Source of the DNA: an uncultured Nocardioidaceae bacterium
GTDB lineage: Bacteria > Actinomycetota > Actinomycetes > Propionibacteriales > Nocardioidaceae
Length of the DNA stretch: 32,751 nt
NCBI GenBank assembly: GCA_902805855.1
Contig: CADCUJ010000048.1
Coordinates: forward strand, 1 to 32,751
Reading direction: 5' to 3'
Shown here: positions 26,272 through 30,191 of the stretch, piece after piece
Position numbering within the stretch: the first letter of the stretch is position 1
Layout of the letters: every line of letters begins with the position of its first letter
Made by a program: the position numbers and the translations under genes
The notes under the pieces: model-generated
Database searches by the model: none
What the model was told of the DNA's origin: nothing
The model's input: the letters and a program-made list of their open reading frames with translations, nothing else

Positions 26272-26757
26272 ATGACTTTCACCGTCGGCGAAACGGTTGT
26301 CTACCCGAATCACGGGGCTGCAGTCATCGAGGACATCGAAACTCGACAGATCAAGGGCGAGGACCGGCAGTACCTGGTCCTGCGCATCGTTGCCCAACAG
26401 GATCTCGTCGTCCGGGTCCCCGCTTGCAACCTCGATCTCGTGGGCGTGCGAGACGTGGTCGACAAGGATGGGCTGGAGCGGGTCTTCGAGGTGCTGCGGG
26501 CATCGCACACCGAGGAGCCGACCAACTGGTCGCGTCGCTACAAGGCTAACCTGGAGAAGCTGCACTCCGGTGACGTCATGAAGGTGGCCGAGGTCGTCCG
26601 TGACCTGTGGCGCCGCGAGCGTGACCGCGGCCTGTCCGCCGGTGAGAAGCGGATGCTGGCCAAGGCGCGGCAGATCCTGGTCTCCGAGCTGGCGCTCGCC
26701 GAGCACACCAACGAGGACAAGGCCGAGACCCTCCTCGACGAAGTGCTCGCCTCCTAG
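26272..26757 (+). CDS. carD: RNA polymerase-binding transcription factor CarD
   Basis: Essential actinobacterial factor that binds the RNA polymerase beta subunit and stabilises open promoter complexes, notably at rRNA promoters. 161 residues, normal length. The N-terminal RNA-polymerase-interacting Tudor-like domain covers residues 1-60 ([20 protein letters not shown]), and the helical DNA-contacting domain follows, with the conserved Trp in [13 protein letters not shown] and [16 protein letters not shown]. The ATG has a ribosome binding site at 26254-26261. It begins the carD-ispD(-like) block that in mycobacteria reads carD-ispD-ispF-cysS-rlmB-type (Rv3583c-Rv3579c). Confidence 0.97.
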
Positions 26758-26846
26758 AGGCGGTCCCCACGCCGACGGCGGTCGGGCTGGTCCTTACCGA
26801 GCATCGAGGCGGCCTCCCTTTCGCCACCCTCGCCGGGCGCAGCCTG

Positions 26847-27323
26847 GTGTCGTGGGCGGGTGCTGCGCTGGCACGCTCTGGCGCCACCACGCTCGAGCCG
26901 AACCGGGCCTGGACCGAGGTGGCCGACCTGGACGCCTGCCTGGTGCTGCACGATGCCCTGTGCCCGCTGACCCCGGCTGCGTTCATCGCCGACCTGGTGG
27001 AGCGGGCGGCGGAGTCGGGGGCGGTCGTCGTCGGTGTGCAACCGGTGACCGACACGATCAAGGCGGTCGACGACGGTCAGGTCGTCGAGACCATGGACCG
27101 GCTGGCGCTGTGGGAGGTCGTCTCACCGCTCGTGCTGCCCGCGCCGGTGGTGCGCTCGTGCGAGGACTGGCCGGCCACGCGCTCCCTCGCCCGGATGTTC
27201 GCGGACCTGGCCACCGCCTTCGCGGTGCGCATGGTCGAGGCACCTGCTGCCGCTCGCCGGGTCGACGACGAGTCCGCGCTGCGGCTGCACGAGGCCTACG
27301 CGCAGGTCTCCGGTCCGCTATAG
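26847..27323 (+). CDS. Degenerate IspD-like protein, start uncertain (possible pseudogene)
   Basis: Resembles 2-C-methyl-D-erythritol 4-phosphate cytidylyltransferase and sits in the ispD slot after carD. IspD-like features kept: LVLHDALCPLTPAAF (compare HDAARPL), PVTDTIKAVDDGQVVETMDRLALW. Lost: the HDAARP Arg (now Cys), the TPQ motif (now SPLVLP) and the C-terminal NxKIT region. Homology continues upstream in frame to about 26763 (VGLVLTEHRGG, LAGRSLVSWAGAAL), where the nucleotide loop GxGxR is absent, but no ATG, GTG or TTG precedes 26847 in this frame; GTC at 26763 follows an AGAGG, and CTG 26787 is another option. Either a pseudoenzyme with an unusual start or a decaying gene. Confidence 0.65.
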   Translation: MSWAGAALARSGATTLEPNRAWTEVADLDACLVLHDALCPLTPAAFIADLVERAAESGAVVVGVQPVTDTIKAVDDGQVVETMDRLALWEVVSPLVLPAPVVRSCEDWPATRSLARMFADLATAFAVRMVEAPAAARRVDDESALRLHEAYAQVSGPL

Positions 27324-28025
27324 GGCCGGCAGCAGGCGTTCTGCCACGGCAAGGTCGGTGGGGTAGGTGATCTTCAGGTTCGTGGCCGGGCTCGGGACGC
27401 ACCGGATCGACAGATCGGTGTAGCGCTCGACGCAGCTCGCGGTGTCCGTACCGGCGAACCCGTCGTGTGCAGCGCGTCGGTAGGCCTTGAGGAGAGCATC
27501 AGCGCGGAAGGCCTGTGGTGTCTGTACGCCGACCAGCGCTCTGTGCTCGCTCGAGGCGGAGGTCGCGTCCTTGGTCAGGAGGTTCGGCCGGGACCGGCCC
27601 GGCAGGGCCCCGCCGTGCTCCGAGGCCGCCGCGATCACCGCATCGAACAGACTGCCAGCGGCGAACGGGCGGGCGCTGTCGTGGACCGCCACGACCTCCA
27701 GGTGCCCGTGCTCGATGTCGGCGGCCAGCACCTGCAACGCGTTGTGCTCCGAGCCGTGCCGTGTCGTCCCACCTGCGACCACCGTGACGCCGCGGCCAGG
27801 CAGATGTTCGCTGGCCAGGGCGACGACCTCCGCACGCTCGGGCTCCCTGGTCGTGACGACCACCCGGTCGACGTACTCGAGCGCCGCCACCGTGCGCAGC
27901 GACCATGCCAGCACCGGGATGCCGCCCAGCGGCAGCAGCACCTTGTTGGTCTCGGCACCGACCCGGCTGCCCGCTCCGGCCGCGAGGACGATCACCGCTG
28001 CGCGCGTGCGTCCTGGGCCGGGCAT
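27318..28025 (-). CDS. ispD: 2-C-methyl-D-erythritol 4-phosphate cytidylyltransferase (IspD)
   Basis: Third step of the MEP isoprenoid pathway: CTP plus MEP gives CDP-ME. 235 residues. The nucleotide loop LAAGAGSR (14-21) with Lys28, the HDSARP motif at 115-120, TPQAF at 169-173, the TD in GFAGTDTAS and Lys218 in NLKIT are intact. The dimer-arm segment that usually reads PxxDTIK is replaced by RPNLLTKDA and is shortened, an unusual feature. ATG at 28025 lies 34 bases after ispF. Its TAG stop is the reverse of the CTATAG that also ends the IspD-like gene. It presumably supplies the real activity; a related cytidylyltransferase role is less likely given ispF. Confidence 0.88.
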   Translation of the reverse strand: MPGPGRTRAAVIVLAAGAGSRVGAETNKVLLPLGGIPVLAWSLRTVAALEYVDRVVVTTREPERAEVVALASEHLPGRGVTVVAGGTTRHGSEHNALQVLAADIEHGHLEVVAVHDSARPFAAGSLFDAVIAAASEHGGALPGRSRPNLLTKDATSASSEHRALVGVQTPQAFRADALLKAYRRAAHDGFAGTDTASCVERYTDLSIRCVPSPATNLKITYPTDLAVAERLLPAL

Positions 28026-28059: not shown

Positions 28060-28542
28060 TCACTGCCGCGGCACTATCAGCGCCGTCGCGATCGCGGCGA
28101 GGCCCTCCCCCCGCCCGGTCAGTCCGAGCCCGTCGGTCGTGGTGGCCGACACCGACACCGGAGCGCCGACGGCGGCTCCCAGGACTCGCTGCGACTCGTC
28201 CCGTCTCGGCCCGAGCTTCGGCCGGTCGCCGATCACCTGGACGGCGACGTTGCCCACGTCGAACCCGGCCGCGGTGACCCTGCGGACCGTCTCGGCCAGC
28301 AGCGCGGTACCGCTCGCCCCGGCCCACTGCGGCTGCGCTGTCCCGAAGGTGCTGCCGAGGTCACCGAGACCGGCCGCCGATAGCAGCGCGTCACAGGCGG
28401 CGTGGGCGGCGACATCCCCGTCGGAGTGGCCTTCGAGCCCCATCGGCTCGTCGAGGAACTCCAGACCGGCGAGCCACATCGGCGCACCAGCCACGAGGCG
28501 GTGCACGTCGCTGCCGATCCCGATCCGCGGAGTCTGGGCCAC
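28060..28542 (-). CDS. ispF: 2-C-methyl-D-erythritol 2,4-cyclodiphosphate synthase (IspF)
   Basis: Fifth MEP pathway step: cyclises CDP-ME 2-phosphate with loss of CMP; acts as a trimer. 160 residues, normal length. Zinc ligands Asp12 and His14 (GIGSDVHRL) and His39 in GLEGHSDGD are present, followed by [13 protein letters not shown] and the C-terminal [19 protein letters not shown]. The start is GTG at 28542. It precedes ispD on the minus strand, the reverse of the usual ispD-ispF order, and both are opposite in strand to carD, pointing to a local inversion or re-insertion. Confidence 0.96.
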
Positions 28543-28634: not shown

Positions 28635-30191
28635 GTGCGCGAACATAGGAGTGTGAGGAGCTCCGCGGGACGGCTGCCGCACGCCCTCGCCGGCGTGGTC
28701 GCCGGGGTGGCTGGAATCGCGGTCAGCCACGCGCTGACGATGCTGCTCAACGTCCGGGCCACCCCGTTGGTCGCGGTTGCCGAGGCGATCATCGAGGTCA
28801 CCCCGGGTGCCCTGGCCGAGGGCCTGATCCAGCTGGTCGGCCAGTACGACAAGCCGCTGCTGATCGCCGGAGTCACCCTCGGCCTTCTCGGCCTCTCGGC
28901 ACTCGCCGGCGTGCTCGGCAGCCGCAGCCTCGCGCCGGCCAACCTCGTGTTCCTGGCGATGGGCGCCGTTGCGGCAGTGGCGGTGGCGACCCGGCCCGGC
29001 TTCTTGACCTACGACCTGCTTCCGGTCGTCGCGGGGACGGCGACCTGGTTCGTCGTGCTCGGCTACCTCGTGAGCTCCTCGGCCCGCAGGCAACCCGACC
29101 GGGCGGCTGCTGGGAGCAGTGCGCCCGCCGACAGCGGACGCCGCGGGTTCCTCATCCAGGTCGGCGTCGTGGCGGCGACGGCGGCGGTGATCGGTGTCGG
29201 TGGTCATCTGCTCGGCCGGACCCGGCGAGGTGTGGAGGCGAGCCGCCGGCTGCTGCGCCTGCCGGTGAGCCGCGGAAGCGTACCCCCCGGCGCCGAGCTC
29301 GAGGTGAGCGGCATCAAGCCCTGGCGCAGCCCCAACCAGGAGTTCTACCGGATCGACACCGCGCTCGTCGTGCCCGCCATCGAGCTGGACGACTGGCGGC
29401 TCCGGATCCACGGCATGGTCGAGAACGAGATGGAACTGACCTACCGGGACCTGCTCGACCGGCAGATGACCGAAGCCTGGATCACGCTCTGCTGCGTGTC
29501 CAACGAGGTAGGCGGTGACCTGATCGGCAACGCCTACTGGAGCGGGGTGCGCATCGCCGACATCCTCGCCGAGGCGGGAGTCAGCCCGGACGCGGACGCG
29601 GTGCTCCAGACCTCGGACGACGGCTGGAACTGCGGCACTCCCCTGGCCGCGTTGACCGACGACCGCAACTCGCTGCTGGCCATCGCGATGAACGGTGAGG
29701 CGTTGCCGGTGGAGCACGGTTTCCCGGTGCGGATGGTGGTGCCCGGGCTGTACGGCTACGTGTCGGCGACCAAGTGGCTGGTCGACATCGAGGTCACCCG
29801 GTTCGACAGGTTCACCGCCTACTGGACCTCGCGCGGGTGGGCCGCGATGGGTCCGATCAAGACTCAGTCGCGGATCGACGTACCCCGCAGCGGTGCGGAC
29901 GTCTCGGCGGGAACCCGCCGGGTCGGTGGGTCGGCGTGGGCGCAGCACACGGGGATCGACAAGGTGGAGTACCGGCTCGACGGGAACGACTGGCAGCCGG
30001 CCACGCTGGGGCGTGTTCCCGGTGCGGACACCTGGGTGCAGTGGTCCGGCTCGGTCGAGGTGCCCCCTGGCTCGCACACCCTGGCGGTCCGGGCCACCGA
30101 CCGCACCGGCTACACCCAGACCCCGGTGCAGACCGAGGTGGTGCCGGACGGTGCGACCGGCTGGCACACCGTGGAGTTCAACGCCGGGTAG
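28635..30191 (+). CDS. Membrane-anchored sulfite oxidase-like molybdopterin oxidoreductase
   Basis: A 518-residue protein. Four hydrophobic helices (about 18-38, 75-95, 100-118, 127-147) precede a twin-arginine-like motif SGRRGFLIQ at 167-175 and a fifth helix (171-190). The rest is a sulfite-oxidase-type molybdopterin domain (about 225-420), with the Mo-ligand Cys in [13 protein letters not shown] (Cys286 or 287), [22 protein letters not shown], and an Ig-like dimerisation domain (about 425-518). It is expected to face the cell exterior. The substrate may be sulfite or another small sulfur or oxyanion compound. GTG at 28635 used; GTG 28653 is possible. Divergent from ispF. Confidence 0.88.

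Follow-up and report, generated by a model that had tools for sequence, protein, structure and literature searches.

A probable heteromeric IspD in Nocardioidaceae that would combine the nucleotide pocket of one protein with the beta-arm of another

The window, a stretch of 32,751 nucleotides from an uncultured Nocardioidaceae bacterium, lies on a contig of 70% GC in a 2.64 Mb draft genome that is 97.9% complete. It carries carD on the plus strand (26272-26757; Pfam CarD_C, 130.7 bits), directly downstream of it on the same strand a gene that we call D (26763-27323), and then, on the minus strand, a gene that we call I (27318-28025), followed by ispF (28060-28542; TIGR00151, 159.4 bits, above the cut-off). 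The convergent genes D and I share six bases at their 3' ends; D encodes a putative arm-donor protein derived from IspD (186 residues, counted from GTC at 26763), and I a putative IspD catalytic subunit of 235 residues in which the nucleotide pocket is intact but a working arm is missing. Named relatives that share the gene pair belong to Nocardioides and Marmoricola. Between ispF and cysS lies a large open frame (28635-30191, plus strand) that resembles a molybdopterin oxidoreductase by eye.

Structural work on Escherichia coli IspD reportedly revealed an arm that reaches into the pocket of the other subunit, and for comparisons we use the residue numbering of that protein. A review assigns residues 137-159 to the arm, which links the subunits of the dimer and holds the MEP site; MEP is described as apparently bonding with Arg157 and Lys213, and the pocket residues named as strictly conserved are Gly18, Arg20, Lys27, Gly82, Asp106, Arg109 and Lys213 (PMC11770629). 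In another paper Thr140 bonds the hydroxyls of ME and the Francisella T141E variant is inactive (PMC3111433). The locus has in common with the known homodimers (E. coli, Mycobacterium; PF01128/TIGR00453) the fold, the pocket residues in I, the arm residues in D and the carD/ispF neighbourhood, but whereas pocket and arm are there present in every chain, two genes are found here and neither chain has both.

The I protein matches Pfam IspD (PF01128) at 149.7 bits over profile positions 2-219 (cut-off 27), and TIGR00453 is its best NCBIfam model, yet at 160.2 bits it falls below the cut-off of 181.3 of that model; the ribitol-5-phosphate model scores 73.7 bits. Its AlphaFold model (pLDDT 93.9, pTM 0.92) has the IspD fold, with VIA-align Z scores of 29.8 to 1vpa and 29.3 to 5hs2, both of which are IspD. 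The nucleotide loop LAAGAGSRVGAETNK (27942-27986, minus strand) contains Arg21 and Lys28, the equivalents of Arg20 and Lys27; Lys218 (27372-27374, minus strand) corresponds to Lys213, and the TPQ motif (27513-27521, minus strand) is invariant in 50 aligned I sequences. The arm segment (27525-27602, minus strand) lacks DT.K, Arg157 and, in the model, the hairpin, strands of at least three residues being absent between residues 145 and 165. The preliminary description had read the minus-strand protein as an IspD that keeps the loop, TPQ and Lys218 but has a changed, short arm, and the profile match together with the absence of DT.K and Arg bears this out. PF01128 has four matches in the window genome, namely I, D, a protein that NCBIfam assigns to GlmU and one below the cut-off at 19.6 bits; since the others are partial, GlmU or below the cut-off, I is the sole full-length IspD candidate of this genome. 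I scores 114 bits against Bacillus subtilis IspD and 49-73 bits against mycobacterial IspDs; as to a horizontal origin, the tree described below goes only as far as giving I a separate clade.

The open frame of D extends from 26646 to 27323 on the plus strand. ATG, GTG and TTG are all absent between 26646 and 26847, and position 26763 is a GTC, so that D would start at a rare codon or the draft genome contains a base error; ACG at 26769, 8 nt after AGAGG (26756-26760), and GTG at 26847 are the candidate starts. Pfam IspD matches D at 53.9 bits but only over positions 88-171 of the 221 in the profile (cut-off 27). The AlphaFold model (pLDDT 95.5, pTM 0.89) adopts the IspD fold and has arm strands at residues 99-103 and 106-111, and the best Foldseek match is the mycobacterial IspD 2xwm (E 6.6e-12, TM 0.69 by query); PADLOC gave no match for D, and its relatives reach 51% identity at most. 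The family alignment shows a nucleotide loop that has shrunk to HRGGLPF, with Leu at the position of Arg20 and Lys27 deleted; D has neither the loop nor the catalytic residues (Arg20, Lys27, Arg109, Lys213) of an IspD. It does have the beta-arm, DTIK...MDR (27051-27101, plus strand; DTIK 27051-27062, DR 27096-27101), with Thr98 (27054-27056) equivalent to Thr140, Lys100 (27060-27062) and Arg113 (27099-27101) equivalent to Arg157. The earlier reading of the plus-strand protein, loss of the loop and retention of DTIK and the DR segment, thus agrees with both the partial profile match and the family alignment.

Across the family, these losses are complementary. Among 139 distinct I sequences (a frameshifted one, L130, was omitted), Gly16, Gly18, Arg20, Lys27, Ser88, Asp106 and Arg109 are each present in 139, and Gly82 and Lys213 each in 138, so that I possesses the pocket residues called strictly conserved, but does not combine them with Thr140 and Arg157 in one chain. 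Thr140 occurs in 1 of the 139, the other 138 having Leu or Val, and Arg157 in none by alignment, which places a gap or another residue there; by plain counting, three of the 139 have an Arg eight residues before TPQ. The span from HD to TPQ has a median of 54 residues in the I family (52-71), versus 61-62 in 13 IspDs that are linked to carD in the Nocardioidaceae and bear their arm in cis; these have Arg157 in 13/13 and Thr (8) or Ser (5) at position 140, and were found by a pattern that recovered 13 of the 14 chosen loci and missed L027.

DT and Arg are kept in 139 of 143 D sequences, including L136, which has DTAK; the remaining four are first copies of tandem D genes, the second copies of which keep both. 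For the 138 D sequences chosen by the arm motif, the columns of Thr140 and Arg157 are true by construction (the unbiased count being the 139 of 143 just given), and Lys27 falls in a gap in 138, Arg20 is replaced by Leu in 135, Arg109 by Cys in 138 and Lys213 by Arg in 138, with Asp106 kept in 137. Omitted from this census were proteins scoring 100 or less, that is, a frameshift fragment (L088) and four whole D proteins (L106, L107, L110, L112), all four of which have DT and Arg. Asp97, Thr98 and Arg113 are invariant among 72 aligned D sequences (alignment A3, which takes 72 of 75 D loci and omits L106 as well as L101 and L103, both listed with an armless copy; alignment A1 takes 43). The claim of two IspD-type proteins with complementary losses, originally made for the window, therefore holds over 139 I and 143 D sequences.

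The two genes also occur together. An I-type IspD, scoring at least 249 bits with profile A2 where the following match scores 148, was found in 74 of 149 Nocardioidaceae genomes, and 74/74 of these had a match to the D of the window. Another 74 had neither D nor I; 15 of these genomes gave weak D matches, which where inspected fall within their own IspD-type proteins, and 59 gave none. The one genome in which D is seen without I is G118, where the contig breaks off about 230 bases beyond D. Of 215 Nocardioides genomes, 195 had both (D at E 5e-22 or better, I at E 4e-45 or better), 20 had neither and none was mixed; the Nocardioidaceae and Nocardioides samples overlap, and the counts are of genomes and not of independent events. 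I is frameshifted in four of the 195 (G399, G415, G418, G494), its fragments lying close to D, and D is in pieces in two of the 195 (G389, G457). D is also frameshifted in G046. The preliminary description had asked whether the genes always go together and had held that genomes with the minus-strand type alone would remove the need for a partner; such genomes number 0/74 in the Nocardioidaceae, 0/195 in Nocardioides and 0/15 outside the family.

D and I are convergent neighbours at 80/80 named loci, the best 80 of 172 stretches obtained by an alignment scan (a single-sequence scan of the genome contigs gave no match); as the patterns used to find these loci were derived from D and included the arm, they support the pairing with I and not the conservation of the arm. 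Adjacency is broken at loci fetched outside the named set: I lies 1.8 kb away in G054, on another contig in G051 and G121, and on the same strand in G126. Some genomes have a further IspD-type protein beside the pair (e.g. G134, G080, G029), so that the pair may not be their only IspD; in L224, the second IspD-type protein of G479, the Arg is present, DT is absent and LPQ replaces TPQ. Second matches to the D profile occur in G075, G366, G426 and G478.

Tandem D genes were recognised in nine genomes (G033, G116, G132, G450, G486, G298, G294, G328, G468), and in 9/9 the first copy (D1) is armless and the second armed. The arm has been cleanly lost from D1 and the remainder is still conserved, which leads us to consider that the body of D may serve a function apart from the arm. 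These tandems follow carD at L100, L101, L103, L242 (on a contig shared with L202), L241, L243, L244, L245 and L248. The shortest D, that of G020 (L112, 2816-3244), has at most 142 codons and is convergent with I; it keeps the arm and little other IspD, its Pfam match covering profile positions 101-154, the arm region.

In genomes devoid of the pair, DT and Arg are present in cis in 17/17 IspD-type proteins read from 17 Nocardioides genomes (L205-L221) and likewise in one chain in G098 (L026), and a DXR match was found in all 20 Nocardioides lacking the pair. The two proteins tested against TIGR00453, the cis-armed L207 and L211, exceed its cut-off. Many Nocardioides lacking the pair (L211-L221) have an IspD domain followed by a tail of about 240 residues, which is an SDR domain in the tested L211, and the protein may serve in the IspD role or in another pathway; in these cytidylyltransferase-SDR fusions, as in the other cis-armed IspDs of Nocardioides without D and I, DT and Arg are part of the IspD domain of a single chain. 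In G485 and G491 (the latter assembly 96% complete), a search for a full-length IspD match returned only N-terminal matches, a kind that corresponds to GlmU in the window genome, and DXR is present. In other genera of the family carD is followed by a cis-armed IspD (L013, L117, L115, L116 and others), and D occupies the slot that ispD holds in these cis-armed genera.

Relatives of I exist beyond the Nocardioidaceae. The I profile was run against 188 genomes of the phylum, and the best 30 loci, plus the cis-armed L297, were read for arms, a sampling in which armless proteins of lower rank would be missed. Among the best 30 loci, I-clade proteins were found in 15 genomes outside the family; 14 other loci read are cis-armed and, except for L274, lower-scoring. 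The 15 outside proteins have Arg20, Lys27, Ser88, Asp106, Arg109 and Lys213 in 15/15 and Gly18 in 12/15; Thr140 is lost in 14/15 and the Arg eight residues before TPQ in 13/15, the exceptions being G526 and G675 for the Arg and G675 also for the Thr. Measured from HD to TPQ, their arm segments span 55-63 residues and are thus close to full length, which indicates that the motif, and not the hairpin, has been lost. In a tree built with the arm columns omitted, 37/37 sampled rows of the I type form one clade (support 100/95), and the cis-armed and SDR-fused Nocardioides IspDs form a separate clade of seven rows (100/100).

An arm-bearing partner is present in all 15 of these genomes, near I in the fetched stretch in 11 (several beside ispF), and elsewhere in a carD-ispF slot for G526 and G540; in G515 and G568 it lies on a different contig. 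Eleven partners lack the loop, three (G540, G515, G568) have an altered loop without Lys27 and one is intact, that of G526 being a whole IspD; Lys213 is kept in the partners of G540, G515 and G568, and Arg109 in those of G540 and G515. Read by eye, Arg is at the position of 157 in 15/15, and position 140 is Ala in 10, Ser in 1 and Thr in 4. Nine proteins were tried with Pfam IspD: five exceed the cut-off (L280, L284, L285, L289 and the short D of L112), three are below it (L283, L290, L293), and L294, which has no match, was recognised from a weak profile hit together with the motif. In one family, L298 (G526) and L299 (G540) both combine an armless I with a carD-linked IspD that is whole in the former and has lost Lys27 in the latter, and from their sequences these two drafts, which have 4-5% contamination, look like steps of one path. 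In another family (L291, L292), the catalytic-type copy has an arm of near full length in which NEEL or NDEL replaces DT.K and Arg157 is missing, and the partners on another contig (L315, L316) have DETLK and TVDR without Lys27.

Taken together, our results suggest that I and D probably make up a heteromeric IspD with an active site composed of the pocket of I and the arm of D. The complementary losses, the co-occurrence, the neighbourhood and the selection acting on D are observed, and to these the predicted fold of each chain is added; from them we infer a physical heterodimer of 1:1 make-up, exchange of the arm in trans and inactivity of I alone. With D lacking a pocket for its own arm and I having a pocket but no arm, the simplest account is that D completes the site of I. 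I would bind CTP through its loop and hold the equivalents of the catalytic Arg20, Lys27, Arg109 and Lys213, and D, a relic of IspD with the same fold, would dock where the second subunit would otherwise sit. Its beta-arm (Thr98, Lys100, Arg113) would then cover the pocket of I, the arm residues holding MEP, so that only the site of I would be complete, D would be without a catalytic site and the arm of I would serve nothing. The heterodimer with D as arm donor, offered as speculation in the preliminary description, thus gains support from the co-occurrence, the complementary losses, the tandem D genes and the short D of G020, the complex itself being a conclusion drawn from these. Several observations point the other way or fit less neatly: the conservation of D1, the absence of Thr140 from most outside partners, the Lys213 and Arg109 kept in some of these and the whole IspD of G526, the Arg before TPQ in the I relatives of G526 and G675, the Thr140 of G675 and the incomplete retention of Gly18, the unspecific rate covariation given below, the additional IspD-type proteins, G118 and the missing usual start codon of the window D.

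The confident prediction that I folds as a whole IspD would also suit an I that is a complete homodimer and holds MEP differently, with D as a pseudoenzyme of that pathway that acts allosterically or by stabilisation. The D1 copies, armless and conserved in nine genomes, indicate that the D body is valuable without an arm, and rate covariation is not specific to D and I: the value is 0.54 for D-I given IspF and CarD and 0.55 for D-IspF given I and CarD, values so close that I and IspF are not distinguishable as the partner of D. We nevertheless regard this account as unlikely, as it leaves unexplained why 139 of 143 D sequences keep DT and Arg but have lost the loop, Arg109 and Lys213, why each recognised tandem has exactly one arm and why several partners outside the family are reduced to little beyond the arm region.

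That I might be a TarI-like enzyme for another alcohol phosphate, D being part of that activity, is suggested by its score below the TIGR00453 cut-off (160.2 versus 181.3), but TIGR00453 is still the best NCBIfam model of I, far above the 73.7 bits for ribitol-5-phosphate, I adjoins ispF and a second full-length IspD match is absent from the window genome. Moreover, DXR is found in 212 of 215 Nocardioides genomes and HMG-CoA synthase in 0 of 215, that is, only the MEP pathway is present in this sample, and we consider such an enzyme very improbable. Least credible of all is a D that is the decaying remnant of an old carD-linked ispD, found with I through common descent alone. D does sit in the slot of the cis-armed IspD of other genera and is frameshifted in G046, G389 and G457, but the frameshifts of I in other assemblies (G399, G415, G418, G494) make sequencing errors the probable cause. 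D is under purifying selection like I, the median dN/dS being 0.30 for both proteins, against 0.11 for IspF, across 457 close pairs that are not independent (D identity 0.72-0.995, dS up to 1.5), and D is retained in 74/74 and 195/195 genomes with I; this retention and the dN/dS values disfavour D as a pseudogene.

For the phylum as a whole, we lean towards an ancient split of IspD in which a single loss of arm function produced the I clade and was followed, in many actinobacterial lineages, by a stepwise paring of second copies to dedicated arm donors, giving an obligate two-gene enzyme with composite sites. The proposed series would run from the whole partner of G526 through those that have lost Lys27 (G540, G515, G568) and the half protein of the Nocardioidaceae to those with little beyond the arm (G020, G537). 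Akin to this arrangement, the trypanosome AdoMetDC prozyme and the deoxyhypusine synthase paralogue are reported to pair a catalytically dead paralogue with an impaired enzyme (PMC5201418, PMC3663545); the AdoMetDC prozyme is there said to relieve autoinhibition, whereas the dead partner proposed here would supply substrate-binding residues, in bacteria and for another enzyme. By title and opening of the abstract, none of the open-access papers listed for this subject described a split IspD, in a body of literature that leaves most subscription journals outside its coverage.

IspD is a drug and herbicide target and is treated as a homodimer. If the heteromeric reading is true, the conserved orphan gene beside carD would be explained, and living lineages would illustrate how complementary loss can convert a homodimer with shared sites into an obligate heteromer. 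Expressing the annotated ispD alone from such bacteria may then yield an inactive enzyme.
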